Below, in pieces: positions 4,642 through 19,420 of a stretch of 64,000 nucleotides of DNA. Under the pieces are notes generated by a model that did not search any database, was not told the origin of the DNA, and saw only the letters and a list, made by a program, of their open reading frames with translations. A program made the position numbers and the translations under genes. Each line of letters starts with the position of its first letter. The stretch's first letter is position 1. The DNA comes from Pseudomonas bijieensis (lineage in GTDB: Bacteria > Pseudomonadota > Gammaproteobacteria > Pseudomonadales > Pseudomonadaceae): contig NZ_CP048810.1 in NCBI RefSeq assembly GCF_013347965.1, forward strand, positions 1 to 64,000, read 5' to 3'.

Positions 4642-5508
4642 TCATTTGCGTCGCGGCCTTGGTGCAGCGCCGAACAGTTGTTCACGGACGCAGGACCAGG
4701 CGCAGTGCAGCCCTGTGCGCAATGCCACTGCATCGAGGGTCATGAGGCGCAAGCTGACCCCGCAATCGTTGGGCAGCGCGCTGACGCCCACGTAGCTGTC
4801 GGGCAGGCTGCTCAGGGCATCGCGCAGGCGTTGCTTGAGGGCGTCGACCGGTAGGTCATGCCCCACCAGCATGAAGGTCGCCAGCGCCTGCATGCCTTCG
4901 CTGACCCCTGGTAATCGACGGCGCATGTCCTCTCCGGTCAGCGCCAGGTGATCACCTGCCAACAGCCGGCCGTTGTGGCTGCGCACTTGCAGGTCGGCGC
5001 GATAGGCGTCGAATACCCCTGTGTTGCCTTCAGGCGCATGCAGGCAGAACGCATCGCAAAGCATCACCCTGGCCGCGGGGTGCAGGATCACCTCGACCCG
5101 GCTGTGCAGCCTGGCGTGGGGAAACAGGATCGTCGCCATTGGCAGGTATTCGAGCAAGGCGCCGCTCTTGGCTTCCAGGCTGACCACCTGCTGCGCTGGC
5201 TGTTCGAGCATGCTGTGTGCGACGGTGGCCGCACCGGTGCTGACGTGTGCCTGGCTACCGGGTTCAGCCCGCACCTGCACGTGCAGGTGTTCCCCCGCGA
5301 AGATGCCCCCCGAACAGGACTGCAGGTACACCGCTGCCATGCCTGGCGGGTCGTCGGGCAGTTTGAGCGTGCGTCCCAGATGAAACGGGTAGCCCACCTG
5401 CTGCGCAGAAATGTAGCTGTCGCCATTCGGGGTTTGGCTGAAGGTAATTCGCGCCTGTGGCTCGACGGATTCGGTCAAGGGACGAAACAGCGTCTGAGGC
5501 GCGTTCAT
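4642..5508 (-). CDS. ureD: Urease accessory protein UreD
   Basis: A 288-residue UreD/UreH family protein. It binds apo-urease and, with UreF and UreG, delivers nickel and carbon dioxide to the active site. The [16 protein letters not shown] start, the GGIFAGEHL block, [11 protein letters not shown] and the [12 protein letters not shown] region follow the family order. Its ATG overlaps the ureG stop as ATGA, which indicates translational coupling and fixes the start (a TTG two codons earlier is less likely). It is the last gene of the urt-ure run. Placing ureD at the end, away from the structural genes, is unlike the ureDABC order of many proteobacteria. Confidence 0.9.
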
Positions 5509-6164
5509 GGGCAATCGAACAGCACGGCGCGGCTGATGGCGTCGACCACCGCATCGACGCCTGCGCCCGTGGCGCAGTTGGTGAACAGCACCGGCTTTGC
5601 GCCGCGGGCCTCGGCGGATTCACGACGCATGCGTGCCAGATCGACCCCGACGTAGGGCGCCAGATCGTACTTGTTGACGACGAGCAGGTCGCAACTCAGA
5701 ACTCCCGGCCCTCGTTTTCGCGGAATGTCGTCGCCCCCTGCAACGTCGATGACGAAGATCCAGTAATCCACCAGGTCCAGGGAAAAGGTCGACGCCAGGT
5801 TGTCGCCGCCGGATTCGATCAGGATCAGGTCCAGGCGCTGGAAACGCGCTTCGAGCTCGTCCGCCATCTGCAGGTTCAGCGTCGGGTCTTCGCGGATCGC
5901 CGTGTGCGGGCATGCGCCGGTTTCCACCGCGCGTACTCGCTCCGGGTCGATCAGGCCGCTGCGTCTGACTCGCTCGGCATCCTCGCGGGTCGCCAGGTCG
6001 TTGGTGATCACCGCAAGCTCCGTGCCTCGGGCAATAAAACGCGGGATCAGCTGTTCCAGCAGGCGGGTCTTGCCCGAACCGACCGGCCCCCCGATACCCA
6101 CCCGTGCAGCACCGGGATGGGGGACGGGCTCGGCGAGCGGTTGTGCATTGAGTCGGGTATTCAT
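5505..6164 (-). CDS. ureG: Urease accessory GTPase UreG
   Basis: A 219-residue SIMIBI-class GTPase that hydrolyses GTP during nickel insertion into urease. The P-loop GGPVGSGKT starts near residue 23, followed by the TNDL switch, the metal-binding CPH motif ([13 protein letters not shown]) that bridges the Ni-loaded dimer, the ESGGDNLA segment, and [10 protein letters not shown] for base recognition. Two adjacent ATG codons are possible starts (6167 and 6164); the AGGAG site sits better for 6164. It lies 25 bases after ureC and overlaps ureD. Confidence 0.94.
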
Positions 6165-6189
6165 CATCGGGCTCCTTGTACCTTAGGGT

Positions 6190-7902
6190 TCAGCGCAGCA
6201 TGTAGCGCTGGGCCAGCGGGACTTCGCTGACCGGCTCACAGGTCAGGCGTTCGCCATCGGCGTATACGTCGAATGTCTGCGGATCGACACGGATGTCGGG
6301 GCAGGCGTCGTTATGCAACATGTCGGATTTGCGCAAGGTGCGGGTGCCGATGGCAGGCAGCAGGGCTTTTTTGAGGCCCAGTTTCGCTGCCGTGTCGGAC
6401 TCCACGGCCAGACGATTGACGAAATTCACCGACAGAGCCTGCTTGGCCTCACCGAACGCACCCCATTGAGGGCGCATCACCAATGGCTCGCAGGTATAGA
6501 GCGATGCGGCCGAATCCCCCATCACGCCATGCACGATGAAACCACCCTTGACCACCAGTTCCGGCTTGATCCCGAAGAACGCCGGGCGCCATAGCACCAG
6601 ATCGGCGATCTTGCCCGGCTCCAGCGAGCCAATGTAGCGGTCAATGCCGAACACCCGTGCCGCGTTGATGGTGTACTTGGCGATGTAGCGTTTGATCCGT
6701 TCGTTGTCGCCCAGCGCGGTGCTTTCTTCAGGCAGGCGGCCGCGCTGGTCCTTCATCTTCGAGGCCAGTTGCCAGGTGCGGCAGATGACTTCATTGATCC
6801 GGCCCATGCCCTGGCTGTCCGAGCCGAGGATCGAGATCGCCCCGGTGTCATGCAGGATGTCCTCGGCGGCGATGGTTTGCGGGCGCACCCGCGATTCGGC
6901 GAAGGCGACGTCTTCCGGCACATCGGGATTGAGGTGATGACAAACCATGATCATGTCCAGGTGCTCGTCGAACGTGTTCACGGTGTAGGGGTTGGTCGGG
7001 TTGGTGGAGGAGGGGATGCAGTTGGCCTTGCCGGCCACGCTGATGATATCTGGCGCATGCCCACCCCCCGCACCCTCGGTGTGATACATGTGAATGGTGC
7101 GATCGCCGATGGCCGCCAGGGTGTCTTCCAGAAACCCTGATTCATTGAGGGTGTCGGTGTGCAGCTGCACCTGGAAATCGTATTCGTCGGCGACCTTCAG
7201 GCAGGTGTCGATCACTGCCGGCATCGCGCCCCAGTCTTCGTGGATCTTCAATCCCAGGCAGCCACCGCGCAGTTGCCCGAGCAACGATTCGGGTTTGCTG
7301 GAATTGCCGCGTCCCAGAAAACCGAAGTTGATCGGCCACGCTTCGCAGGCTTGCAGCATCTTGCCCACGTTCCATTCGCCGCCGCAGTCGATGCCCACCG
7401 TGATCGGGCCCAGCGAGCCGCCGATCAGGGTAGTCAGCCCTGCCGCCAGGGCGTGTTCGCACAGTTGCGCCGAGTCGAAATGCACATGCACATCGATGCC
7501 ACCGGGGGTGACGATCAGACCTTCGGCGTCGCGCACGGTGGTCGCCACGCCGCAGATCAGTTGCGGGTGCACGCCGTCCATGACCTGCGGATTGCCGGCC
7601 TTGCCGATGGCGACGATCTTGCCGTCCTTGATGCCGATGTCGCCTTTGACGATGCCGATCACCGGATCGATGATCAGCGCATTGCAGATCAGCATGTCCA
7701 GTGCCCCGTCGTCGCTGTCGTGACCCGGCATCAGGCCCATGCCATCGCGCAGGGTCTTGCCGCCGCCGTGCAGGCATTCGTCGCCCGGCACCGAGTGATC
7801 GAACTCGACCTCGGCCAGCAGCGAGGTGTCGCCCAGACGCACGGCATCGCCAACGGTGGGGCCGTACATCGCGGCGTATTCCTTGCGGGTCATCGTTGCC
7901 AT
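6190..7902 (-). CDS. ureC: Urease alpha subunit
   Basis: The 570-residue catalytic subunit of nickel urease, which hydrolyses urea to ammonia and carbamate. All metal ligands are visible: the VHVHFD pair of His, the carbamylated Lys in GLKIHEDWG, His in QLHTDTLNE and [10 protein letters not shown], and Asp in GSDSQGMGR. The flap His lies in MVCHHLNP, with the flap Cys equivalent just before it. The length is standard. It starts four bases after the ureAB stop, and together they form the heteromer. The sequence is intact, so an active enzyme is expected if the accessory genes are expressed. Confidence 0.97.
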
Positions 7903-7905
7903 GGT

Positions 7906-8601
7906 TCAGGCCCCCTTGAAGTGTTGAGCACGCGCGCGGTCCAGCGCTGCGGCCTTGCAGGCCGGATCGTGCAGGTTGCCATTGGTCAGGCCGCTGAAGC
8001 CGTGGATGTCGCCGCTGCCGCCAAACTGCACCAGTTGCACCTCGCGCAACTCGCCGGGCTCGAAACGCACGGCAGTCCCGGCCGGGATATCCAGATGCAT
8101 GCCGAAGGCGATTTCCCTGGGGAAATCCAGCGCTTTGTTGACCTCGAAAAAGTGATAGTGGCTGCCAATCTGCACCGGGCGGTCGCCGGTGTTGATTGCG
8201 CGCAGGGTGGCTGTGGGCCGGCCGCTGCTCAGCTGAATGTCGCCCTCTGGCGAGATGATCTCCCCCGGGGTTGGCATGATCGCCAGCGCCAGTCGGCCGG
8301 GACGGATCGGCTGGTGCACGGTGACCAGCTTGGTGCCGTCGGGAAACGTACCTTCCACTTGCAGCACCGGCAGCAGGTCGGCGACACCGGGCATCACGTC
8401 GTCGGTGGTAAGGAGGGTCGAGCCGAAGCCGATCAGCTCGGCGACGCTACGACCTTCACGCGCGCCTTCGAGAATCTCGTCGGCGATCAGGGCGCTGGCT
8501 TCCGGAAAGTTCAGGCGCAGGCCCTTGGCGCGGCGTTTGCGCGATAGCTCGGCGGCGGTGTACAGCGTCAGCCGTTCGAGTTCTGTCGGGGTCAGCAGCA
8601 T
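7906..8601 (-). CDS. ureAB: Fused urease gamma-beta subunit
   Basis: A 231-residue protein in which the gamma subunit (about residues 1-100, [20 protein letters not shown]) is fused to the beta subunit (about 110-215, with [14 protein letters not shown] and [14 protein letters not shown]). In many Pseudomonas ureases these are separate UreA and UreB polypeptides; a fusion of this order is known from Helicobacter UreA and some other bacteria. The start is the ATG at 8601, with AGGAG seven bases upstream; a TTG six bases earlier is ignored. It lies between ureF and ureC in the same operon. The linker is short and has no frameshift, so the fusion looks functional. Confidence 0.93.
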
Positions 8602-8643
8602 GTTCAAGCTCCTGTGTTGACGGCAGGCACAGAGCCCATCACC

Positions 8644-9369
8644 TCAATTGGCAAAAAGTCGGAGTTCCTGGGTTTCGTGACGCATCACGGCGATCTCTGC
8701 CATGGGGGTAAAACCGCAGGCGTCTTCAAGCTCGGGCACGGGCCAGGTGAGGATGTCCAGCAGCAGAGGCTGGATAGTGGTCAGCACCCTTTGCGCATCC
8801 AGATGGCCCATGACGCCCAGGCGTACGGCGGCACTGACCAGCCCCGTGCACAGCCCGTGAGCGGCGGCGAGTTGGCAGTGGTCGTGGTCCATGCCCAGGC
8901 GTTGCCAGAGCAACCCTTGCACCACGGCCAGATGCCCCGGTGCGTCGCCCGCCAGTACACACTGCTGGTAGGCCTCGGCGCCTGGTGTACCCATGGCCAC
9001 ATGCACACCCAGCAGTGACTGACCCACACGGCGCGAGCCCAGGCGCAGTTCCTCGGCCAGGGTCAAGGCTTCGACCTGTGCATCCAGCGCACATAACCCC
9101 TGAGTGTCGGTGGCCGCGTACCAGGCTGCGGACAGGAACGCCCGGTCGAAACCGGCCCATCGGTGACGCAGCTGTCCCTCGACGAATCCGCTGACCTGAG
9201 CACTGCGATCCCGATACACGCCCCGTTGGCGACGAGGGGCCGAGATCTCTGCACCCAGACGACCATCGGCCACCAGCGTCTCCAGTCCCCATGACCAGGC
9301 CACCGCGCCCCCTGGGAAAAAGCTGTCGGCCTGTTGCAGCGCCAACAGGCTGCTGTGTAGCGGACTCAT
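8644..9369 (-). CDS. ureF: Urease accessory protein UreF
   Basis: A 241-residue UreF protein, the component of the UreD-UreF-UreG activation complex thought to gate UreG and hold the nickel tunnel. It opens with the family hallmark [18 protein letters not shown] and contains the helical [18 protein letters not shown] segment typical of UreF. The ATG overlaps the ureE stop as ATGA, so the two are translationally coupled. A 42-base gap separates it from ureAB. Confidence 0.92.
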
Positions 9370-9806
9370 GAACGCGACACCCGGCCGTCGGCCAACATCG
9401 GTGCCAGGCGCTCCAGGTAGTCCGCTTGCGGGCCATGTAGCGGGATCTGTAGCTGATCACCGGCGAAACGCACTTTCCAGTGCATGTTCCCTGCGAAATA
9501 CCCCAGTTCCAGCGCTGCGCCAGCATCGCGAGGGCGCAGCGTCAGGTACTGCTGGTCCAGCATCTGCACGACGATGGCGCGCTCACCGTCGAGCATCAGC
9601 ACCGAGCCGTTGCGCAACTGTTGATGGCGCTCAAGACGAATGGCGCAGTCAGTGCCACGGTCACTGGCCAGGCGCAGGCGATGACGCTGGATGTCGCTGG
9701 CCGAAAGGCTCAGGGTTTCGACCTGGCCGTTGTGGTCCAGGTCGTGCAGCCGCTCGGCGAGAGCAGGGTCGCTGGCCTGGCCGACGATGCGATCGAGTAT
9801 CAACAT
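9366..9806 (-). CDS. ureE: Urease nickel chaperone UreE
   Basis: A 146-residue UreE, the metallochaperone that passes nickel to UreG. The N-terminal peptide-binding domain is followed by the metal-binding domain, with the conserved His in [12 protein letters not shown]. The histidine-rich C-terminal tail found in Klebsiella UreE is absent; the protein ends in DGRVSRS. It begins the accessory/structural urease half of the operon, 21 bases after urtE. Confidence 0.9.
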
Positions 9807-9827
9807 GGCGTGGTCTCCAGTGCCGAA

Positions 9828-10517
9828 TCAGATGGTCAGGTAGCGCAGGATGCGCTCGCGGTCCATGGTTTCACGGACCTCGCTGTGAACGAACTCGCCT
9901 TTCTCGATGATCAGGTAACGGTCGGCCACCGCCATGGCGAACGACAGCACCTGCTCGGAGACGATCAAGGAAAACCCTCGCTCTTTTTTCAGCAGGTTCA
10001 GGGCCCGGGCGATGTCCTTGATGATCGACGGCTGGATGCCCTCGGTGGGCTCGTCGAGGATCAGCACCTTGGGGTTGGAAACCAGCGCGCGGGCGATGGC
10101 GAGCTGTTGCTGCTGGCCACCGGACAGGTTGCCGCCCTTGCGTCGGCGCATCTCGAACAAGACCGGGAAATACTCGTAGATGTAGTCGGGGATCGGCGCG
10201 GCCGGTGCGCTCTGCATGCCGGTCAGAATGTTCTCTTCGACGCTTAGGTAAGGAAAAATCATCCGGCCCTGAGGCACAAAGCCGACGCCTGCCGCGACCC
10301 GGTCGTAACTCTTGCGCCCGGTCAGTTCTTCGCCCGCCAGTTTGATGCTGCCACTGCGCGCGGGGAGCATGCCCACCAGGCTCTTGAGCAGGGTGGTCTT
10401 GCCCATGCCATTGCGTCCCATGATCGCCAGGGATTCGGCGGGCGCCAGATTCAGGTCCAGATTGCGCAGCACGTGGCTGTCGCCGTAATACACGTTGAGG
10501 TTATTGACGGTCAGCAT
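9828..10517 (-). CDS. urtE: Urea ABC transporter ATPase UrtE
   Basis: A 229-residue ABC ATPase of the branched-chain amino acid (LivF) type. It carries Walker A GRNGMGKTT, signature LSGGQQQQ and Walker B VLILDEPTEG, the last followed by IQPSIIKDI, which is typical of UrtE. With UrtD it powers urea uptake through the UrtBC membrane pair. It follows urtD by two bases and precedes ureE. Confidence 0.93.
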   Translation of the reverse strand: MLTVNNLNVYYGDSHVLRNLDLNLAPAESLAIMGRNGMGKTTLLKSLVGMLPARSGSIKLAGEELTGRKSYDRVAAGVGFVPQGRMIFPYLSVEENILTGMQSAPAAPIPDYIYEYFPVLFEMRRRKGGNLSGGQQQQLAIARALVSNPKVLILDEPTEGIQPSIIKDIARALNLLKKERGFSLIVSEQVLSFAMAVADRYLIIEKGEFVHSEVRETMDRERILRYLTI

Positions 10518-10519
10518 GC

Positions 10520-11257
10520 TCAGTGCCCCAGGTAGACGTCGATGACGCGAGGATCGTTTTGCACCTGATCCATCGAGCCGTAGGCCAGGGTCTTGCCCTG
10601 ATGCAGAACGGTGACTTTGTCGGCCACCGATTTCACGAATTCCATGTCGTGCTCGATGATGACCATGGCGCGGCCCTTGGCGATCTGTTTGAGCAAGCCT
10701 GCGGTTTTTTCCCGTTCGCCCGCGCTCATGCCCGCCACCGGCTCATCGAGCAACAGCAGCTCGGGGCGTTGCATCAGCAGCATGCCGATTTCCAGCCATT
10801 GCTTCTGGCCGTGGGACAGCAGCCCGGCCTTGCGGCCCAGTTGGTCGTGCAGAAAGATCATCTCGGCGATGTGTTCGATTTCAGCCTGCAAAGCCTTGTC
10901 CTTGCGGGCGAACAGGCAGTTGAAGATGCCGCGCTTGTCCGGTGAGGAGATGTCCAGGTTCTCGCGCACGGTCAGGTCTTCGTACACCGAGGGGTTCTGG
11001 AATTTGCGACCGACCCCGGCGCGAGTGATCTGGTACTCGATCATGTTGGCCAGTTGCAGATCCTTGAACCGGATGCTCCCGGCACTGGGGCGGGTCTTGC
11101 CGCAGATCATGTCCAGCAGCGTGGTCTTGCCGGCGCCGTTGGGCCCGATAACCACATGCACCTGATTTTCCTCGACGTAGAAGTTGAGGCTGTCCACGGC
11201 TTTGAAGCCATCGAATGACACGGTCAGGTCTTCGACACTCAGTATCATCGCGCTCAC
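10520..11257 (-). CDS. urtD: Urea ABC transporter ATPase UrtD
   Basis: A 245-residue ABC ATPase of the LivG type. It has Walker A IGPNGAGKTT, signature LSHGQKQWLEIG (characteristic of UrtD) and Walker B LLLDEPVAGM. The start is taken as the GTG at 11257: AGGAGGT lies six bases upstream and the GTG overlaps the urtC stop as GTGA. The ATG at 11248 is the alternative. The open frame runs far upstream inside urtC, but that part is shadow sequence. Confidence 0.92.
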   Translation of the reverse strand: MSAMILSVEDLTVSFDGFKAVDSLNFYVEENQVHVVIGPNGAGKTTLLDMICGKTRPSAGSIRFKDLQLANMIEYQITRAGVGRKFQNPSVYEDLTVRENLDISSPDKRGIFNCLFARKDKALQAEIEHIAEMIFLHDQLGRKAGLLSHGQKQWLEIGMLLMQRPELLLLDEPVAGMSAGEREKTAGLLKQIAKGRAMVIIEHDMEFVKSVADKVTVLHQGKTLAYGSMDQVQNDPRVIDVYLGH

Positions 11258-12396
11258 GACTGCACCTCCTTGTTGCTTAGGCGTTGCAGCAGCCCGGCCA
11301 GCCCCGACGGCAGGAACAGCACCACGCCCATGAACAGAAAGCCGATGAAGTACTGCCAGAAGTTGACGAAGTTTTCCGACAGGTAGGTCTTCGCCACGCC
11401 GATCAGCAACGTGCCGTAAACCGCGCCCACCAGCGACAGACGCCCGCCCAAGGCTGCGTAGATGACGATTTCGGTGGACGGGATAATGCCCACCAGAGAA
11501 GGGGAGGCGAGGCCGACCTGGAGTGTGAACATCACCCCGCCCAGGGCCGAAATCAGTGCCGCGACGGCGAAGATGAACGCCTTGAACAGAGCCGTGTTGT
11601 AGCCGGAAAAGCGCACCCGGTCTTCCCGGTCGCGAATGGCGACCACCACTTTGCCCAGCCGGCTGCGCAGAATGAACCCGCACAGCGCCACGCAGCCAAG
11701 CAACAGCAGGGTGGTGATGAGGTACAGGATCCAGGGCGTTTGCGGGGCTTGCAGGCTCAGGCCGAAGGCGGTCTTGAAGTCGGTCAGGCCGTTGACGCCG
11801 CCGGTGTAGCCTTGCTGGCCGATGATCATGATCGACATGATCGCCGCCAGGGACAGGGTGATGATCGAGAAGTACACGCCGCCCACACGCTTTTTGAAGT
11901 ACGCGTAGCTGAACGCAAACGCCAGCAGGGGCGGGATGATCAGGATCGCGGCGATGGTGAAGGTCGCCGATTCGAACGGTTTCCACCACCAGGGCAAGGC
12001 ATCGACGCTGTTCCAGATCATGAAGTCGGGCAGGGCCGAGCCATAGAAAGCAGCCAAGGCGCTGGCCGCTTCATCAGTGGCGGTCGCTTCCAGCTTCAGG
12101 TACATGGCCATCATGTAACTGCCCAGGCCGAAGAAGATGCCCTGGCCCAGGCTGAGAATCCCGCCGTAGCCCCAGATCAGCACCATGCCCAATGCACAGA
12201 ACGCCAGGCTCAGGTATTTGCCCGCCAGCCCCAGGCGAAAATCCCCCAGGCTCAAAGGCAAAATGACCAGTAACAGGATCGACAGCCAGACCAGGCCATG
12301 TCGTTCGATCAGGGGCAACCAGCCCGCGCTGAGCATGCGCGATCCACGGGAGGGCGCCTGTGGCCGGATAAGCGGCTTTTCAGTCATGTCATTCAT
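11254..12396 (-). CDS. urtC: Urea ABC transporter permease UrtC
   Basis: A 380-residue LivM-type permease with about ten hydrophobic segments. Family marks include WGYGGILSLGQGIFFGLGSY near residue 90 and the permease loop AIRDREDRVRFSGYN that contacts the ATPases. The N terminus is cytoplasmic and polar. It forms the membrane channel with UrtB. It starts one base after the urtB stop and overlaps urtD. Confidence 0.93.
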   Translation of the reverse strand: MNDMTEKPLIRPQAPSRGSRMLSAGWLPLIERHGLVWLSILLLVILPLSLGDFRLGLAGKYLSLAFCALGMVLIWGYGGILSLGQGIFFGLGSYMMAMYLKLEATATDEAASALAAFYGSALPDFMIWNSVDALPWWWKPFESATFTIAAILIIPPLLAFAFSYAYFKKRVGGVYFSIITLSLAAIMSIMIIGQQGYTGGVNGLTDFKTAFGLSLQAPQTPWILYLITTLLLLGCVALCGFILRSRLGKVVVAIRDREDRVRFSGYNTALFKAFIFAVAALISALGGVMFTLQVGLASPSLVGIIPSTEIVIYAALGGRLSLVGAVYGTLLIGVAKTYLSENFVNFWQYFIGFLFMGVVLFLPSGLAGLLQRLSNKEVQS

Positions 12397-12397
12397 C

Positions 12398-13300
12398 TCA
12401 GCGTCTCACTTTCGCGGCAAACAGGCCGTTGGGGCGGAAGAACAGCAACACAATCACCACCATCAGGGTGATCGCCTTGGCCATGGAACCAGTGGTCAGG
12501 TACTCCAGCGAGATCTGCGTCTGGCCGATGGCAAAGGCGGAAAGAAAAGTCCCTAGCAGGCTTTCGACGCCGCCGAACACCACCACGATGAACGTGTCCA
12601 CCAGGTACTGCTGGCCGCTTACGGGGCCTGTTGAGGCGAGCATGGTGAACGAGCTGCCGGCAATCCCCGCGAGGCCGCAACTCAGAGCGAATGTGACGGC
12701 GTCAACGCGGGCGGTGTTGATCCCGGCGGCACCGGCCATGGCGCGGTTCTGGGTGACGGCACGGATGCGCAGCCCCCAACGGCTGCGATACAGGAACAGA
12801 AACACGGCACCGGCAATGACCAACGTCAGGCCTATGATGAAAATCCGGTTGAGGGGCAACTCCAGTCCCTCACTGATCTTCCAGGCGCCTTGCAGCCACT
12901 CCACGGTCGGCACGCTGACTTCCTTGGGGCCGAATACCTGACGAAACACTTGCTGCAGCACCAGCGACAGGCCCCAGGTGGCGAGCAAGGTATCCAGCGG
13001 GCGGTTGTACATGAAGCGGATGAAGCAACGTTCAAGCAGGAAACCGAAGGCAAAGGTCACCACGAAGGCGACACCAATGCCGATGATGAAGTACCAGCCC
13101 ATGAACTCGGGGAAATAGCGCTGGAACACCAGCGATGTGACGTAGGTCATGTATGACCCCATCGCCATCAGCTCGCCGTGGGCCATGTTGATCACGCCCA
13201 TCAGGCCGAAGGCGATGGTCAGTCCCAGCGCCATCAGCACCAGCACCGAGAACAGCGAGAATCCGCTGAACACCTGCATTATCAAAATATCGAGAGTCAT
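12398..13300 (-). CDS. urtB: Urea ABC transporter permease UrtB
   Basis: A 300-residue LivH-type permease with MGVINMAHGELMAMGSYMTY near the start and the GLRIRAVTQNRAMAGAAGI coupling loop. It is the short form of UrtB; some bacteria carry a long N-terminal extracytoplasmic extension, which is absent here. It follows urtA after a 90-base gap that holds a strong hairpin. Confidence 0.93.
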   Translation of the reverse strand: MTLDILIMQVFSGFSLFSVLVLMALGLTIAFGLMGVINMAHGELMAMGSYMTYVTSLVFQRYFPEFMGWYFIIGIGVAFVVTFAFGFLLERCFIRFMYNRPLDTLLATWGLSLVLQQVFRQVFGPKEVSVPTVEWLQGAWKISEGLELPLNRIFIIGLTLVIAGAVFLFLYRSRWGLRIRAVTQNRAMAGAAGINTARVDAVTFALSCGLAGIAGSSFTMLASTGPVSGQQYLVDTFIVVVFGGVESLLGTFLSAFAIGQTQISLEYLTTGSMAKAITLMVVIVLLFFRPNGLFAAKVRR

Positions 13301-13390: not shown

Positions 13391-14572
13391 TCACAGTTTC
13401 GGGAATGGGTTGGGCTCGATCGGCGCGGACTCGTAGATCACATCGACCTGGCCCTGGGCGTTGATGGTGCCGATGCGCGCACGCTTCCACAGGTGGTGGT
13501 TGTCCTTGTGCACCTTGATCTCGCCTTCAGGCGCATCGAGGGTCAGTTCCGAAGAGGCAGCGATGACGGCCGGGACGTCGAAGCTGTTGGCTTTCTCCAC
13601 GGCTTTCTTCCACAGGTACACCGCGGTGTAGGCCGCCGCCATCGGATCGCCCACCACGCGTTTTTCGCCATACCGGGCCTTGAATGCCGCGACGAATTTT
13701 TCGTTGACCGGATTTTTCAGGCTCTGGAAGTAGCTCATGCAGGTCAGAAAGCCGGTGAGGTTTTCGGCGCCGATGCCGGTGACTTCTTCCTCGGTGACAG
13801 CCAGGGCCATCAGCGTCTGGTTACTGCTGTCGATGCCCGCGGCCTTGAGCTGTTTGTAGAACGCCACGTTGGAGCCGCCGACGATGGTCGACAGGACGAT
13901 ATCGGGCTTGGCGGCCTTGATTTTGTTGATCACCGAGGAGAACTCGATGTTGCCCAGGGGCAGGTAGTCCTCACCGACGATCGAGCCGCCCTGCTTGTTC
14001 ACCGACGCGCGGGCGAGCTTGTTGGTGGTGCGCGGCCAGATGTAGTCGGAGCCCACCAGATAGACGCTCTTGCCCTTGTTGGCCATCAACCAGCTGACAG
14101 CGGCCAGCGTCTGCTGCGAGGCTTCGGCGCCGGTGTAGATGATGGCCGGGGATTTCTCCAGACCCTCGTAGAACGTCGGGTAGTACAGCAGGCCCTTGTT
14201 ACGCTCGAACACCGGCAGCACGGCTTTGCGCGAGGCCGAGGTGAAGGCGCCAAACGTGACCACCACGTGATCGTTTTCCAGGAGCTTGCGCGCTTTTTCG
14301 GCGAAGGTCGGCCAATCGCTGGCGCCATCTTCGACGATCGGTTCAATGGTCTTGCCCAGTACACCGCCGCTGGCGTTGATTTCGTCGATGGCGAGTTTTT
14401 CCGCATCCACCACCGAGGCCTCACTCATGGCCATGGTGCCGGTGAGCGAATGGATGATCCCCACTTTGACGGTCTCTGCCGCCTGGACCTGGCTGGCCAG
14501 GGAAAACGGCAACAGGCTGAAGGCCCCCAGTAATAGGGCATGCTTGATCAAACGGCGTTTGTCGTTGTGCAT
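13391..14572 (-). CDS. urtA: Urea/amide ABC transporter substrate-binding protein UrtA
   Basis: A 393-residue periplasmic binding protein of the Peripla_BP_5 (UrtA/FmdD/AmiC) family. The signal peptide runs to about residue 31 (HALLLGAFSLLPFS core, cleavage near VQA-AET). The ligand-domain signature KVGIIHSLTGTMAMSE, the GAFTSASRKAVLPVFE block and YYPTFYEGLE are typical of urea/short-chain amide binders. GGGGAG seven bases upstream supports the ATG at 14572. It is the first gene of the urt-ure operon. Its 5' leader carries a terminator hairpin directly before the ribosome site, so expression is likely attenuated. It is a paralogue of the AmiC-like cytoplasmic sensor encoded divergently. Confidence 0.92.
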   Translation of the reverse strand: MHNDKRRLIKHALLLGAFSLLPFSLASQVQAAETVKVGIIHSLTGTMAMSEASVVDAEKLAIDEINASGGVLGKTIEPIVEDGASDWPTFAEKARKLLENDHVVVTFGAFTSASRKAVLPVFERNKGLLYYPTFYEGLEKSPAIIYTGAEASQQTLAAVSWLMANKGKSVYLVGSDYIWPRTTNKLARASVNKQGGSIVGEDYLPLGNIEFSSVINKIKAAKPDIVLSTIVGGSNVAFYKQLKAAGIDSSNQTLMALAVTEEEVTGIGAENLTGFLTCMSYFQSLKNPVNEKFVAAFKARYGEKRVVGDPMAAAYTAVYLWKKAVEKANSFDVPAVIAASSELTLDAPEGEIKVHKDNHHLWKRARIGTINAQGQVDVIYESAPIEPNPFPKL

Positions 14573-14591
14573 TTCATTTCTCCCCAGGAAT

Positions 14592-14640
14592 AAAAAAAGC
14601 CCGACGTCCCGGTTAAACGAATAATCGGGAGGTCAGGCTT
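14592..14640 (-). terminator. Attenuator in the urtA leader
   Basis: On the minus strand the leader contains AAGCC-x-GAC-x-TCCCG pairing with CGGGA-x-GTC-x-GGCTT (two mismatches, loop about 14 bases), followed at once by seven T. It sits only about 20 bases before the urtA ATG and directly before its ribosome site. That is the placement of a leader attenuator rather than a gene-end terminator; no gene ends upstream on this strand. Confidence 0.78.
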
Positions 14641-14645
14641 CTTGT

Positions 14646-14672
14646 GCCGAATCTGGCGGGACAACTGTGTCC
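14646..14672 (-). promoter_or_regulatory. Tandem ANTAR-type hairpins in the urtA leader
   Basis: Reading the minus strand, GGAC-ACAGTT-GTCC (14672-14659) is followed after one base by GCC-AGATTC-GGC (14657-14646). ANTAR antiterminators are known to bind paired small hairpins with six-base loops having A at position 1 and G at position 4. The first hairpin fits fully; the second keeps A1 but has T at position 4. They lie just upstream of the attenuator and are the likely target of the AmiR-like protein encoded at 16395. Confidence 0.65.
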
Positions 14673-14692
14673 GATCCAGTCGTACGCCAAGT

Positions 14693-14726
14693 GTCTCCCT
14701 ACTTGCCAAGTGGGCGTAGGGCAGAC
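14693..14726 (-). promoter_or_regulatory. Upstream conserved stem of the urtA leader
   Basis: GTCT-G-CCCTAC pairs with GTAGGG-AGAC around an inner GCC/GGC stem and a two-base AA bulge. The same architecture (CCATAC-GCC...GGC-AG-GTATGG) occurs upstream of the ANTAR hairpins in the amidase leader at 17072. The shared word TGCC-N-TACGCCC marks the left arms of both. Confidence 0.55.
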
Positions 14727-14754
14727 AGCCGGCGCGATGTCTCGGGAGAGTATT

Positions 14755-14770
14755 TGCAAGGTCGGTGCCA
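14755..14770 (-). promoter_or_regulatory. Sigma-54 promoter of the urt-ure operon
   Basis: Minus strand TGGCAC-CGACC-TTGCA matches the -24/-12 consensus with exact GG-N10-GC spacing. Transcription would start near 14743, giving a leader of about 170 bases that contains all the hairpins listed here. This is the expected promoter type for nitrogen-limited urea uptake. Confidence 0.82.
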
Positions 14771-14849
14771 ATTGCCGATGAGGGCACAATCAGGGGCCAT
14801 CGGGCACAACGGTCGGTATTCACTGCATCTATTGCAAGCTTGACGGGCC

Positions 14850-14868
14850 TTGCGCCGGTTTGGCGCAA
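14850..14868. promoter_or_regulatory. NtrC-like dyad upstream of the sigma-54 promoter
   Basis: TTGCGCC-GGTTT-GGCGCAA is a perfect dyad lying about 80-100 bases upstream of the sigma-54 promoter. It resembles the NtrC enhancer consensus TGCACC-N5-GGTGCA, with G for A in each half. The assignment to NtrC is inferred. Confidence 0.6.
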
Positions 14869-15249
14869 GGGGCCTGGTTGCGCACCAAAAGCGTGAAGGT
14901 TTCATCGGTGCTGTGCGAGCAGCATTGCCCTACCGACGGTCAGCGCACCCTATGCGTGGCTCAGCGATCAGGCCGCTGGAAGGGGAGTGGCCCGCAATCT
15001 GCATGAGGACACGGCACTACCCTCGCAGGGTCCCTTGTCACACGCCCGTTCCCGGCAGGTGTGGAAGGTCCCTCGCATGGCCGGCCCCGACAGCGCAGTC
15101 GCACCGGTTTCAGGCACAAGCCGCCTGAGAGCAGCCGTTGAATCCACGGCCACCGCTCACCGATTCTTTGCACAATGACTCTTTGCAGATGGCCCGCCTC
15201 CCTGACGGACGCCAGGCGTCTGATATCACGTTGAACAAGGTTGATAGGC

Positions 15250-16398
15250 ATGGTTGACCAGGCGATCCGCATAGGCGGTCTGTTTTCCGACACTGGCGTC
15301 ACGGCAGCCGCCGAGCGCTCGACAATGCGCGGTGCGCAATTCGCGATCGAGCAGATCAACGCGGCCGGTGGCGTAGGGGGGCGGCCTCTGGAGCTGGTCA
15401 CCCGCAACCCCGATTCGACCCCCGCGTTGTATGCCATGCATGTCGAGTCGTTGATCCGTGAGGAAAACCTGCGGTTCTTCTTCGGCTGCTATACCTCTGC
15501 TGCGCGTAAGGCTGCGTTGCCGATCGTGGAGCGCTACGACGCGTTGTTGATGTACCCGGTGTACTACGAAGGTTTCGAGTACTCGCGCAACATCATCTAC
15601 ACCGGCGCGACACCCAATCACAACGCGGTGCCACTGGGCAATTACATGCTCGACAACTTCGGCAACCGTGTGTTGATGATTGGCTCCGAGTACGTCTATC
15701 CCTACGAAACCAATCGGCTGATGAGCGACCTTCTGTATGAGCGCGGTGGCACCAAGCTGGGTGAATATTACCTGCCGCTCAAGAATGCCCGGCCCGAGGA
15801 TTTCGCCAAGCTGATGGTCAAGGCCAGGGAGCTCAAGCCGTCGTTCATTTTCTCCACGGTTGTGGGCGAGACCATGGCGCACTTGTATCAGGCCTATGCC
15901 GATGCCGGTTTCGATCCGGCCGTGATGCCCATCGCCAGCCTGACCACCAGCGAGACCGACATCAAGCAGATGGGGGTTCACCTGGGGGCAGGGCACATTT
16001 CGGCAGCGACCTATTTTCAGTCGGTGGACACTGCGATCAACCGCCAGTGCATCGCGCAATACCGTGCGCTGTTCGGTCAGGAGCAGGTCACCGACCGATG
16101 CTGGGAGGCTGCTTATTTTCAGGTGCACCTGCTGGCCAAGGCGATTCTCAGTGCGGGCAGTACCAACGTCGATGACGTGCTGCAAGCCATGCGCGGTCTC
16201 GAATTCGAGGCGCCTCAAGGGCGCGTCAGGGTCGATGCGCACAACCATCACACCTACCTTTTTTCGCGCATCGGGCGGGCCAATGCCCAGGGTCAGTTCG
16301 ACATTCTTTATGAAAGCCAGAACGCCCTCAAACCCGATCCATACGCCATCGCGCCGCGCCTGAACGACTGGTCGAGCGGCACCGGGAGGCCGCTATGA
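15250..16398 (+). CDS. amiC: AmiC-like amide/urea sensor (negative regulator)
   Basis: A 382-residue protein of the same fold as UrtA but with no signal peptide, so it is cytoplasmic. It follows Pseudomonas aeruginosa AmiC along its length: IRIGGLFSDTGVTAAAERS at the start, GCYTSAARKAALPIVER, MYPVYYEGFEYSRNIIY, PIASLTTSETDIKQM, and an end block with DPYAIAPRLNDWS. Known AmiC binds short amides and, when empty, sequesters AmiR. The ATG at 15250 has AAGG nine bases upstream. Its stop overlaps the next ATG as ATGA, as expected for an amiC-amiR pair. The ligand here could be urea or an amide; the sequence alone does not decide. Confidence 0.88.
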   Translation: MVDQAIRIGGLFSDTGVTAAAERSTMRGAQFAIEQINAAGGVGGRPLELVTRNPDSTPALYAMHVESLIREENLRFFFGCYTSAARKAALPIVERYDALLMYPVYYEGFEYSRNIIYTGATPNHNAVPLGNYMLDNFGNRVLMIGSEYVYPYETNRLMSDLLYERGGTKLGEYYLPLKNARPEDFAKLMVKARELKPSFIFSTVVGETMAHLYQAYADAGFDPAVMPIASLTTSETDIKQMGVHLGAGHISAATYFQSVDTAINRQCIAQYRALFGQEQVTDRCWEAAYFQVHLLAKAILSAGSTNVDDVLQAMRGLEFEAPQGRVRVDAHNHHTYLFSRIGRANAQGQFDILYESQNALKPDPYAIAPRLNDWSSGTGRPL

Positions 16399-17027
16399 CC
16401 TTGCGCGCGGCAAAGAAACGGCAACGCAGTGACAGCAGCGCGGGGATCAAGGACCTGCGCGACATCAGTGTGCTGGTGGTGCACCCGGATGATGACGATG
16501 GCCGCAATCTGATCGCGCAACTGCAGCGCATCGGCTGTCAGGTGCGTGTGCAGTGGCCGATTCCCGAGCGGCTCAACACCGAGGTGGACGTGATCGTGCT
16601 TGCCGTTTCCCCCGAAAGTCTTTCGACCAACACACCCTGGCTGCTGCACGCCAGCACAGCGCCGATCATTCCGGTGATCGCCTACGAAAACCCGATCATT
16701 GTCGAGGCGTTGGTGCAGCTCAACGCCTGCTCGGTGATCCCGTCGCCAGTTCGCTCGTTCGGACTGCTCACGGCGTTGGCGCTGACCTTGAGTCAATCGC
16801 GCAAGGCCCGTGAGCGCGAAAAACACGTCAAGCGACTGGAAGGGCGGATGGCCGTGATGCGCACGGTGCAGCAGGCCAAGATCATCCTGATCGAAACCAA
16901 GGGTATGTCGGAAATCGACGCTTACAACGCCCTGCGCGATCAGGCGATGGCCAAACGCGAACCGGTGGAGAAGATCGCCGAAGCATTGGTGAAAGCCCAC
17001 GAGCTGTTTCAACAAGCCTGTTCCTGA
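16395..17027 (+). CDS. amiR: AmiR-like ANTAR antiterminator
   Basis: A 210-residue protein with an N-terminal pseudo-receiver domain (about 20-140; DISVLVVHPDDDDG has an acid cluster, but the phosphorylation site is not clearly conserved), a coiled-coil linker (SRKAREREKHVKRLEGRM) and a C-terminal ANTAR RNA-binding domain (about 150-205; VQQAKIILIETKGMSEIDAY and RDQAMAKREP). AmiR binds leader RNA hairpins and prevents termination when AmiC is ligand-bound. It overlaps the AmiC-like gene by four bases. Candidate targets are present in both the urtA and amidase leaders. Confidence 0.92.
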   Translation: MTLRAAKKRQRSDSSAGIKDLRDISVLVVHPDDDDGRNLIAQLQRIGCQVRVQWPIPERLNTEVDVIVLAVSPESLSTNTPWLLHASTAPIIPVIAYENPIIVEALVQLNACSVIPSPVRSFGLLTALALTLSQSRKAREREKHVKRLEGRMAVMRTVQQAKIILIETKGMSEIDAYNALRDQAMAKREPVEKIAEALVKAHELFQQACS

Positions 17028-17071
17028 GCGTCCGGCCCCACGGGCCTGACCCTCTTCTGCACGGAGGATTG

Positions 17072-17098
17072 CCATACGCCCTTGATCGGCAGGTATGG
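17072..17098 (+). promoter_or_regulatory. Conserved stem of the amidase leader
   Basis: CCATAC and GTATGG form the outer stem, with an inner GCC/GGC pairing, a seven-base loop and an AG bulge on the 3' side. Sequence and architecture parallel the urtA leader element at 14697-14721, with similar spacing (22 against 24 bases) to the GGAC hairpin downstream. Confidence 0.5.
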
Positions 17099-17120
17099 AT
17101 CACCGTGTGGCGACCGGCCT

Positions 17121-17148
17121 GGACAACGGAGTCCTCCGGAGCGAACCG
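17121..17148 (+). promoter_or_regulatory. Tandem ANTAR-binding hairpins in the amidase leader
   Basis: GGAC-AACGGA-GTCC (17121-17134) is followed two bases later by CGG-AGCGAA-CCG (17137-17148). Both loops are six bases long with A at position 1 and G at position 4, the published signature of ANTAR target RNAs. The second hairpin shares CGAACC with a longer competing stem (17142-17176), so the two structures exclude each other. Confidence 0.75.
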
Positions 17149-17205
17149 CAACCTGCGTATCCGCGCAGTGGGTTCGAGTCAATGGCTGCCTGATTGCGGG
17201 CAGCC
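17142..17205 (+). terminator. Competing stem and terminator-like hairpin before the amidase gene
   Basis: CGAACC (17142-17147) pairs with GGTTCG (17171-17176), and CTGCG with CGCAG inside it. A second hairpin, GGCTGCC/GGCAGCC (17184-17205), follows and ends 26 bases before the amidase ATG. The T run after it is weak (CTTAA), so this is a less certain attenuator than the one in the urtA leader. Confidence 0.5.
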
Positions 17206-17231
17206 CTTAACCGATATCTGGAGAACACCCC

Positions 17232-18767
17232 ATGTCCGTAAAACGCCCAAGCAAAGCCGACTTTCTAATCGCCGCCGAAGACCACAGCTATCACCTGAGC
17301 GACAGTCAGATGGAATGCTTCCTCAATTTGGCTGACGAGACCCTCGGTTCCTACGACGCCATCGACAAACTGTATGCGCAAACCATCGCGCAGCAACCCC
17401 CCGAGCGTGAATTCAGCAAGGCGCCGGACGCTGACAATCTGCACGGCGCCTGGTACGTGAAAACCCATATTACAGGCGCCGCCCAAGGCCCGCTGGCCGG
17501 CAAGACGGTGGTCATCAAGGACAACGTTTCCGTGGCCGGCGTGCCGATGGCCAACGGCTCGCTGAGCCTGGACGGTTATGTCCCCTCGGAGGATGCAACC
17601 GTGGTCAAACGCCTGCTCGCTGCGGGTGCGACAGTGGTGGGCAAGTCGGTCTGCGAGGACCTGTGCTTCTCCGGCGCCAGCTTCACCGCCGCCAGTGGGC
17701 CTGTGAAAAACCCATGGGACCTGAGCCGCAACGCGGGCGGTTCCTCCAGTGGCAGCGCCGTGTTGGTTGCCTTGGAGGAGGTCGACATGGCGATCGGCGG
17801 GGACCAGGGAGGATCGATCCGCATGCCCTCGGCCTGGAGCGGCATCGTCGGCCACAAGCCGACCTACGGCCTGGTGCCTTACACCGGGGCTTTCCCGATC
17901 GAAAGGACCATCGATCACGTCGGCCCGATGGCCAACAGCGTGCGTGACGTGGCCGTGATGCTTGATGTCATCGCCGGGGCCGACGGCCTTGACTCCCGTC
18001 AGAAGAACCCGCCAGCCGTTGCCTGTGTCGCCACGCTTGATCAGGGCGTCGCGGGCCTCAGAATTGGCGTGCTGCGTGAAGGCTTCGCGATTCCCAGCGT
18101 GTCCGAGGATCAGGTGGATGCTCAGGTCAAGGCGGCGGTCGCGCAACTGCAAAGCCTTGGCGCGACGGTCGGCGAAGCCAGCGCGCCCTGGCATTCTGGG
18201 GTGGCGCTGGACATGTGGAATGTCATTGCCACCGATGGCGCGGCGTATCAGATGCTGCAGGGCAACGGCTATGGCATGAACGTGGATGGCTATTACGACC
18301 CGGACATCATGAGCTACTTCGGTGCCAAGCGTCGCGAGCACGCCGATGCGTTGTCCAGCAGTGTCCGCGCCGTGGCGTTGACCGGCCACTACAGCTTGAA
18401 AAATCTGCACGGCGCCTATTACGCCAAGGCGCGCATGCTGGTGCCGGAACTCACTCGTCAATACGACGAAGCGTTCAAGGATTTCGATGTACTGGTGATG
18501 CCAACCATGCCCTTCGTGGCGACGCCGCTGACCGCTGCCGATGCGCCGATCGAGGAGTACGTGCACAGTGCGCTGAACATGCTGACCAACACCGCGCCGT
18601 TCGACCTCACGGGCCACCCGGCGACTTCGATTCCTACAGGTCTGGCTGATGGCTTGCCGGTGGCGATGATGATCGTCGCCCCACGGTTCCAGGACGCCCT
18701 GGCCTTGCGCGTGGCTCAGGCCTACGAGCAAGCCCGTGGCCCATTCCCTAAACCGCCGCGTCGTTAA
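17232..18767 (+). CDS. Enantioselective-type amidase (amidase signature family)
   Basis: A 511-residue cytoplasmic amidase that hydrolyses amides to carboxylic acids and ammonia. The catalytic triad reads Lys96 (VVIKDNVS), cis-Ser171 (NAGGSSSGS) and nucleophile Ser195 (GGDQGGSIRMPS), with the usual 24-residue step between the serines. Long blocks such as TYGLVPYTGAFPIERTIDH and VIATDGAAYQMLQGNGYGM match the Rhodococcus enantioselective amidase family often paired with nitrile hydratase, but no nitrile hydratase genes are nearby. The ATG at 17232 has GGAG upstream. It follows the amiR-like gene after a 204-base leader with ANTAR-type hairpins, so expression is probably amide-inducible. Confidence 0.9.
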   Translation: MSVKRPSKADFLIAAEDHSYHLSDSQMECFLNLADETLGSYDAIDKLYAQTIAQQPPEREFSKAPDADNLHGAWYVKTHITGAAQGPLAGKTVVIKDNVSVAGVPMANGSLSLDGYVPSEDATVVKRLLAAGATVVGKSVCEDLCFSGASFTAASGPVKNPWDLSRNAGGSSSGSAVLVALEEVDMAIGGDQGGSIRMPSAWSGIVGHKPTYGLVPYTGAFPIERTIDHVGPMANSVRDVAVMLDVIAGADGLDSRQKNPPAVACVATLDQGVAGLRIGVLREGFAIPSVSEDQVDAQVKAAVAQLQSLGATVGEASAPWHSGVALDMWNVIATDGAAYQMLQGNGYGMNVDGYYDPDIMSYFGAKRREHADALSSSVRAVALTGHYSLKNLHGAYYAKARMLVPELTRQYDEAFKDFDVLVMPTMPFVATPLTAADAPIEEYVHSALNMLTNTAPFDLTGHPATSIPTGLADGLPVAMMIVAPRFQDALALRVAQAYEQARGPFPKPPRR

Positions 18768-18838: not shown

Positions 18839-19420
18839 ATGGGATTGACTCAATCGATACGGCTTTCTCTGGGCGCCGCCTTATGCCTGCTGCCGGTGTT
18901 CGCATTTGCCCATCCAGGGCATGACGAATCAGGCTTGATGGCGGGCGTGGCGCACCCCTTGAGCGGGATGGATCACCTGTTGGCGATGTTCGCGGTCGGT
19001 CTCTGGGCCGCGCAGCAGGCCGGCAAGGCGCGCTTGATGTTGCCACTGACCTTTGTCGCCGGCATGTTGCTCGGCGGCTTGTTGGGGTTCGAAGGGTTCG
19101 CCATTGCACATCTGGAAACCGGCATCGCTGCATCGGTGCTCGCCTTTGGCTTGCTGGTCGCGGTGGCGGCGCGTCCACCTGTGGCGCTTGCCCTCGCCAT
19201 CACCGGCCTTTTCGGACTGGCCCACGGCATCGCCCACGGCATGGAATTTCCGCAGATGAGTAGCCCTGCGGCTTATGCGGTCGGTTTTCTGATCGCGACA
19301 TCGGCACTGCATGCAGCTGGCTTTGCACTGGCGCGGGGGTTGCCGATGCGCGCCGCTGCACTGGTTCGTGCGCTCGGCCTGGTGTCGGCGGGGGCAGGAA
19401 TCACGTTGTTGGCAGGTTGA
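18839..19420 (+). CDS. ureJ: HupE/UreJ family nickel permease
   Basis: A 193-residue membrane protein with a cleavable-looking N terminus, then the family hallmark HPGHDESGLMAG and HPLSGMDHLLAMFAVGLWA, whose histidines are implicated in nickel transport. About six transmembrane segments follow, including AHGIAHGMEFP. The ATG at 18839 has AGGAG seven bases upstream; an in-frame start 30 bases earlier lacks one. It probably supplies nickel to the urease encoded on the opposite strand, although it sits downstream of the amidase gene. Confidence 0.88.
   Translation: MGLTQSIRLSLGAALCLLPVFAFAHPGHDESGLMAGVAHPLSGMDHLLAMFAVGLWAAQQAGKARLMLPLTFVAGMLLGGLLGFEGFAIAHLETGIAASVLAFGLLVAVAARPPVALALAITGLFGLAHGIAHGMEFPQMSSPAAYAVGFLIATSALHAAGFALARGLPMRAAALVRALGLVSAGAGITLLAG

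Follow-up and report, generated by a model that had tools for sequence, protein, structure and literature searches.

A close described relative of the system studied here is the AmiC/AmiR amidase system of Pseudomonas aeruginosa (solved structures 1pea and 1qo0), in which adjacent genes encode a leaderless AmiC and an AmiR protein with AmiR_N and ANTAR domains, and the amidase is AmiE. Other operons are known in which ABC transporter genes accompany an AmiC/AmiR pair (PMC13209695). ANTAR proteins have been reported to target hairpins with a hexaloop bearing A at position 1 and G at position 4 (A1/G4; PMC3369931), and the minimal motif is given in a EutV–RNA structure paper as a single hexaloop whose G4 stacks on a tyrosine (PMC8934654); ANTAR regulons with several leaders, including nitrogen regulons with matches before urea transporters, are in print (PMC3369931). 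The livK RNA (Rfam RF01744) was introduced in 2010 as a candidate cis-regulatory RNA in Pseudomonadales, in a paper whose main text lacks the words "ANTAR" and "amidase" (PMC2864571). Here we analyze 64,000 nucleotides of Pseudomonas bijieensis (contig NZ_CP048810.1, positions 1 to 64,000; hereafter the window), where positions 14573-17231 separate two operons that diverge: the minus strand carries urtABCDE-ureEF-ureAB(fused)-ureC-ureG-ureD, and the plus strand carries AmiC-like, AmiR-like, amidase and hupE/ureJ genes. From comparison of these sequences we consider it quite probable that the livK RNA is what the AmiR-type ANTAR protein of the same locus binds, with antitermination predicted at urtA, autoregulation at amiC, and coupling of the amidase to the same regulator.

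Three matches to the livK RNA lie in the window, before urtA, the AmiC-like gene and the amidase gene, and each exceeds the Rfam gathering score of 65; a search of the whole 6.73-Mb genome gave no copy beyond these three. An earlier note on this DNA, made from the letters alone, had proposed that one AmiC/AmiR pair controls both the urt-ure operon and the amidase through a shared leader RNA, and it had missed the copy before the AmiC-like gene, which the RNA-model search recovered. The three leaders contain the following elements.

14755..14770, minus strand: sigma54-type promoter element TGGCACCGACCTTGCA before urtA, conserved in relatives
14650..14732, minus strand: livK RNA of the urtA leader, 79.2 bits
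14659..14672, minus strand: hairpin P1 of the urtA leader, GGAC-ACAGTT-GTCC, loop A1/G4
14636..14648, minus strand: hairpin P2 of the urtA leader, GGC-ACAAGAA-GCC, its 3' arm inside the terminator 5' arm
14592..14640, minus strand: intrinsic terminator before urtA, U7
14988..15003, plus strand: sigma54-like element TGGCCCGCAATCTGCA of the AmiC-like gene leader, agreeing less closely with the consensus that we assume
15027..15110, plus strand: livK RNA of the AmiC-like gene leader, 80.4 bits
15088..15101, plus strand: P1 of the AmiC-like gene leader, CGAC-AGCGCA-GTCG, loop A1/G4
15111..15127, plus strand: P2 of the AmiC-like gene leader, CAGGC-ACAAGCC-GCCTG
17061..17142, plus strand: livK RNA of the amidase leader, 71.8 bits
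17121..17134, plus strand: P1 of the amidase leader, GGAC-AACGGA-GTCC, loop A1/G4
17137..17148, plus strand: possible second hexaloop of the amidase leader, CGG-AGCGAA-CCG (A1/G4), incompatible with P1's outer stem

A livK model built from 22 copies was used on the window and on related loci (the best 80 of 127, collected through their AmiR proteins and so not an independent test of co-occurrence), and it gave 83 copies in all, distributed over the window and 29 related loci; RNA searches over more than 40 whole genomes were run with stricter filters. All 83 copies contain P1, a GAC-loop-GUC hairpin, with G at loop position 4 in 83/83 and at position 1 A in 78 and G in 5. The 77 six-base loops are of 24 kinds, with G4 in 77/77 and A1 in 72/77 (G in the other 5), while positions 2, 3, 5 and 6 vary, and the six seven-base loops likewise have A first and G fourth. 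The pattern GAC-AxxGxx-GUC appeared in 4 of 4150 shuffled cores. P1 of all three window leaders carries the A and G of an ANTAR target hexaloop. The GGAC-hexaloop-GTCC hairpins of the A1/G4 type that had been noticed before urtA (14672-14659, minus strand) and the amidase (17121-17134, plus strand) are borne out, and, as each falls within a livK match, they are not a product of chance. An outer stem surrounds P1, reading CUGG/CCAG in 50 copies and CCGG/CCGG in 32, and is paired in 82/83. The 5' helix and the closing pair of P1 covary, with 8 of 16 pairs changed on both sides and a covariation score of 0.284 versus 0.119 in shuffles, of which 0 of 500 attain 0.284; in a control with the columns shifted by +2, the double-changed cells numbered 65 and the score was 0.152, compared with 111 and 0.284 unshifted. 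Of five measures set against shuffles, one, that of further pair types, falls within the shuffle range (45/500 as high). The livK RNAs share the A1/G4 hexaloop and, at urtA, a second hairpin overlapping the terminator with the described ANTAR dual-hexaloop RNAs (PMC3369931, PMC8934654); they differ in the additional 5' helix, which spans 12 bp and covaries, in the outer stem around P1, and in P2 loops that mostly depart from G4.

The RNA and an AmiR-type protein occur together in every livK genome found. Among 199 genomes of the genus, livK was detected in 7, all of which have an AmiR_N match of 105-109 bits at the same locus; the AmiR_N cut-off is exceeded in 21 of the 199, and no livK was found in the 11 genomes with a classical AmiR (AmiR_N 122-128 bits). 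In 398 genomes of the family, 12 from 3 of 19 genera contain livK (11 over the cut-off), and AmiR is present in 12/12, that is, in 11 of 11 searched (identity 66-95%) and in the window itself. The genus and family sets share two genomes, so the livK genomes number 17 in total, with an AmiR-type protein in 17/17. At E values up to 1, the livK model had no match at another 51 loci, whose AmiRs are more distant (L096-L146, mostly Burkholderiales); these share the AmiC/AmiR pair, often beside urt-type genes, and, unlike the livK loci, have no MTLRxxKK tail on AmiR.

The order urt-ure/amiC-amiR-amidase is common to all 7 livK genomes of the genus and is seen in 26 Pseudomonas loci (L067-L092), two of them cut before urtA. 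Departures from this order still pair the RNA with the protein: Stutzerimonas stutzeri (L093) has two livK RNAs, with no amidase seen; S. kunmingensis (L094) has one, before ureE, and urtBCDE are absent from the stretch; in genome G469, where the locus has no urt-ure genes, AmiR remains together with a single livK, that of the amidase; and genome G085 encodes another AmiR (59% identical) next to another urt-type operon, whose urtA is preceded by its own diverged livK (48.9 bits, under the Rfam cut-off). The locus in G469 (L219, approximately 10050-10800) has an amd2/tetR remnant abutting the start of the AmiC-like gene, with urt-ure and two livK leaders gone, as after deletion. The paralogous locus of G085 (L061, G085:C69, 9230-16605) comprises an amiC-amiR pair and a divergent urt-like ABC operon, 36-46% identical, and our query set gave no urease or amidase match in the 20 kb covered there.

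In the protein tree the AmiRs of livK loci form one clade (30 rows, support 100/99), outside which the 11 classical genus AmiRs fall; nearest to it are two Burkholderia AmiRs (L096 and L099) on long branches, L096 being placed at 87/68. The livK AmiRs begin MTLR[AS][AG]KK[RK] in 30/30 cases versus 0/51 for the other AmiRs, and the livK 5' helix is seen only with tail-bearing AmiRs, again 30/30 versus 0/51. Tail and helix thus arise jointly, and this basic N-terminal tail may bind the 5' helix, although their joint appearance is a single event on the tree. We entertain, tentatively, a fuller version in which livK would be a composite ANTAR target, the ANTAR domain gripping the P1 hexaloop and the MTLRxxKKR tail gripping the 5' helix, both arisen on the branch of this clade, with the pair antiterminating at urtA and acting on translation at the amidase. 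The suggestion that one AmiR serves both the urt-ure and the amidase leaders is strengthened by comparison, since in the genomes searched livK was found only with this AmiR subfamily, and the operon of AmiR itself would now be added to its targets. The leaders of AmiR loci beyond the livK clade were inspected at 9 of the 80 loci; the urtA leaders of L096 and L099 contain a terminator-like hairpin as well as an A1/G4 hairpin, which is long, with no livK match.

The urtA leader has the arrangement expected from the proposed antitermination. Its upstream element, which we take to be of the sigma54 type on the consensus we assume for such elements, reads TGGCAY-N5-TTGC in 26 of 27 urtA leaders and TGGCCC-N5-TTGC in L095, and in 25 of the 27 it ends 20 nt 5' of the livK model start. 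Between P1 and the terminator, a GGC-A...-GCC hairpin (P2) is found in 27/27 leaders, compared with 95 of 4150 shuffles, and a strong terminator follows in 27/27 (mean -29 kcal/mol, U6-U7) and likewise in the ureE leader (1/1). In the window the 3' arm of P2 (14638-14636) lies within the 5' arm of the terminator (14640-14631); P2 and the terminator are therefore mutually exclusive, and the urtA leader is, by its sequence, an ANTAR antitermination layout. A second small hairpin can indeed form within two bases of each GGAC hairpin, as the earlier note stated; the one it chose at urtA, GCC-AGATTC-GGC, competes with the outer stem CUGG/CCAG, and we prefer GGC-ACAAGAA-GCC as P2.

The sigma54-like sequence TGGCCC...CTGCA is present in 28/28 amiC leaders, in 25 of them 20-21 nt 5' of the livK model start, and P2 in 27/28. 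Of mononucleotide shuffles, 9 in 1660 reach the lower sigma54-element score of 16.5; an initial sigma54 candidate adjoining the start of the amiC livK was replaced by the better conserved 14988-15003 element, and no sigma54-like element of comparable score was found in the amidase leaders. The amidase leaders have P1 in 27/27 and lack a P2 of the urtA type, and adjoining P1 they have GG[AxxGxx]YY, with a short stem, in 25 of 27. The proposed "shared leader RNA" is not supported as worded: livK and P1 are in both leaders, but neither the strong terminator of urtA nor the same second hairpin is seen at the amidase.

We propose that the AmiC-like protein, in the cytosol, keeps AmiR bound as long as it has no ligand, presumably a small molecule resembling an amide or urea, and that AmiR, once released, would bind P1 through its A1/G4 hexaloop while the livK RNAs are being transcribed. 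The urtA leader would be transcribed from the sigma54-type (nitrogen-controlled) promoter, and AmiR on P1 would favor P2; as the 3' arm of P2 forms the terminator base, this would permit read-through into urtABCDE-ureEF(AB)CGD. The livK RNA before amiC would provide autoregulation, and that before the amidase would couple this enzyme to the same regulator. We infer promoter activity, RNA binding, the release of AmiR by a ligand, and antitermination at urtA from the elements, from their conservation and covariation, and from the joint occurrence of RNA and protein.

Several observations weigh against this proposal. As the livK AmiRs are one clade, the co-occurrence may reflect one ancestral association followed by joint losses or transfers. 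Free folding disfavors P1, with a mean probability of 0.17 in amidase leaders and 0.32 in urtA leaders. The P2 loop at urtA departs from G4 in 25/27 leaders (A in 24/27) and has 7 nt in 15; at amiC, position 4 is A in 24/27 and the loop has 7 nt in 14. The amiC terminator is weak and present in 12/28 leaders only, and the test applied to urtA detected an intrinsic terminator in 0/27 amidase leaders. Outside the clade, L098 (UrtA 63%, terminator-like hairpin present) has no A1/G4 hairpin before urtA, and at L096 and L099 the same scan picks up hairpins before amiC that are probably due to chance.

The amidase mechanism may differ from that at urtA, because the amidase leader has neither a terminator nor the same second hairpin. 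It is conceivable, although we would not favor it, that AmiR controls translation there: the strand 3' of P1 (CUCCGGA) would pair with the Shine-Dalgarno region, and binding to P1 would free the latter. All 7 pairs between CUCCGGA and the Shine-Dalgarno region are possible in 23/27 leaders and 6/7 in the remaining 4/27, pairing between the 5' arm of P1 and the start-codon region is feasible in 24/27, and actinobacterial ANTAR RNAs have been reported to act on translation (PMC8164766). Predicted Shine-Dalgarno openness rises from 0.26 when free to 0.38 with P1 forced, in the 21 amidase leaders, out of 27, that contain TCTGGAG. This opening is small, and the control is unclean, as the openness of the urtA leaders (26 of 27 folded, with no amiC leader represented) rises too, from 0.63 to 0.71. 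By eye, moreover, the CUCCGGA/Shine-Dalgarno pairing has no compensatory changes, the Shine-Dalgarno sequence and start codon are constrained anyway, and the start-codon pairing is broken in 3/27.

The genes of the locus are as follows; names that lack a profile-model match were assigned by eye from the sequences.

13391..14572, minus strand: urtA-type binding protein, TIGR03407 538 bits (cut-off 492.75), without equivalents of W120, Q144 and N246
4642..13300, minus strand: urtBCDE, ureE, ureF, the ureAB fusion, ureC, ureG and ureD, open reading frames in an order kept in relatives
15250..16398, plus strand: AmiC-like sensor with no signal peptide, 336 bits to AmiC 1pea
16395..17027, plus strand: AmiR-type antiterminator (AmiR_N and ANTAR, Pfam) with the N-terminal tail MTLRAAKKR
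17232..18767, plus strand: amidase-signature amidase (PRK07235 type), NF005565 773 bits (cut-off 545)
18839..19420, plus strand: HupE/UreJ protein 3' of the amidase, present in some relatives only

Gene calls, Pfam and model matches bear out the placing of an AmiC-like sensor and an ANTAR antiterminator between divergent urt-ure and amidase genes. Among solved structures the AmiC-like protein matches P. aeruginosa AmiC (1pea) at 336 bits and UrtA (7s6e) at 209 bits; in alignment it begins past the end of UrtA's leader peptide and, since that peptide is absent, should be cytosolic. The AmiR-like protein exceeds the Pfam cut-offs for AmiR_N (107.6 bits) and ANTAR (46.5 bits) and scores 91 bits to 1qo0_D. 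The adjacent genes for a leaderless AmiC homologue and an AmiR_N-ANTAR protein are shared with the P. aeruginosa system; the window differs in its divergent urt-ure operon, its three livK leaders with a 5' helix, its basic-tailed AmiR of a separate clade, and its amidase, which belongs to the amidase-signature family PF01425 (603 bits to the solved amidase 3a1k) and is not the aliphatic AmiE of a P. aeruginosa-type ami operon. On the minus strand, urtB was assigned by model match and ureC by comparison with solved ureases (684 bits to 1ejw_C), and the UreC translation has the motifs whose residues we take to be the nickel ligands.

Several features near these genes were also observed. A second amidase-signature gene, at 19511-20950 on the minus strand, has no livK match; several relatives have a related gene, or pieces of one, close to the locus. 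Antisense to ureC, at 7452-7752 on the plus strand, is a match to the Rfam 5' ureB sRNA (RF02514, 45.6 bits, gathering 40), probably an echo of the conserved ureC coding sequence. In genome G101, ureC (L060, 14900) is matched in two frames, as if frameshifted. The other ANTAR match in the P. bijieensis genome (G000:C1:2157218-2157301, L005) lies in a frame that is NasT-like by eye and departs from the ANTAR sequence after domain position 32, as if frameshifted by sequencing error or decay.

The urt-ure operon of the window is the second such set in the genome; another UreC (58% identical) and another UrtA (48%) lie together at 3.44-3.45 Mb, and 58 of 59 genus genomes have a UrtA match at E values up to 1e-50. 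The urea-contact residues of UrtA, from a Prochlorococcus structure, are W120, S122, Y141, Q144, E146, Y190, N246 and S274 (PMC10392092). At the seven of these positions that were mapped (all but S274), window UrtA keeps S122, Y141, E146 and Y190 and has W120F, Q144F and N246V, a set that does not correspond to a urea-binding UrtA, and the AmiC-like protein has Y, Y and V at the W120, Q144 and N246 positions; the UrtA at 3.44-3.45 Mb retains all three residues. In a survey that dropped matches below 34% identity (its "others" row holds AmiC cross-matches and is unused), none of 29 UrtA rows of livK loci, at least one of which may be an AmiC cross-match, keeps W120, Q144 or N246. Two inspected UrtAs of the 62-63% identity class, encoded by urt operons elsewhere in Pseudomonas, likewise carry F and V, whereas W is retained.

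That the sensor detects urea itself, and that the operon is a system for urea uptake and urease, is in our view improbable, although the operon holds a complete urease set, its UrtA passes the urea-transporter model TIGR03407, and the urease stays with the regulator in L094, where urt is absent from the stretch. The F, F, V of window UrtA and Y, Y, V of the AmiC-like protein, the absence of all three residues across the survey, and the presence of a canonical urt-ure set elsewhere in the genome argue against it, and the "urea uptake" of the earlier note is not supported as worded. The signal of the window system is, on these residues, more likely amide-like than urea, because window UrtA lacks the three urea contacts present in the canonical copy. 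Two of these, Q144 and N246, accept hydrogen bonds donated by urea's amino groups, which makes an amide-like ligand the better guess. The weakest alternative, that livK is a metabolite-binding riboswitch whose 5' helix with a 7-nt loop is an aptamer and in which AmiR is coincidental or a second input, draws on the strong conservation and covariation of that helix and on the y, y, ? of the livK entry in a table of PMC2864571, whose third column we take to be the riboswitch column, but is very unlikely given the ANTAR loop signature of the 3' half, the lack of livK at the 51 loci with other AmiRs, and the failure of the 5' domain to appear convincingly apart from livK AmiR. A 5'-domain-only model, run with strict filters on the 199 genus genomes, placed 22 of 24 matches at livK sites, the other two having E values of 0.004-0.007 per genome, and a free-standing aptamer was set aside.

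The remark that such an arrangement had not been seen described is not supported as worded, as the RNA belongs to the livK family of Rfam and a 2012 paper had already mentioned ANTAR targets lying before urea transporters (PMC3369931). All three window leaders match RF01744, which PMC2864571 gives as a candidate cis-regulatory RNA and which we assign to an AmiR-type ANTAR protein. A link between livK and ANTAR was not found by title among the matches listed in the literature searched, although Tables S1 and S2 of PMC3369931 may hold some of these leaders; "livK motif", or "livK RNA" together with "motif", was likewise not found in that literature, and the accession RF01744 turned up there in two papers. 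New here are the assignment of livK to AmiR and the restriction of the 5' helix to tail-bearing AmiRs. The core of the earlier note, which now takes in a third leader and an orphan Rfam family, is well supported as a reading of these genomes.

These results suggest a likely partner and mechanism for an RNA family listed since 2010 as a candidate regulatory RNA, and they show a way in which an ANTAR target may gain a second domain. For P. bijieensis the annotation is corrected: the window holds a second, differently tuned urt-ure set and not the canonical one.

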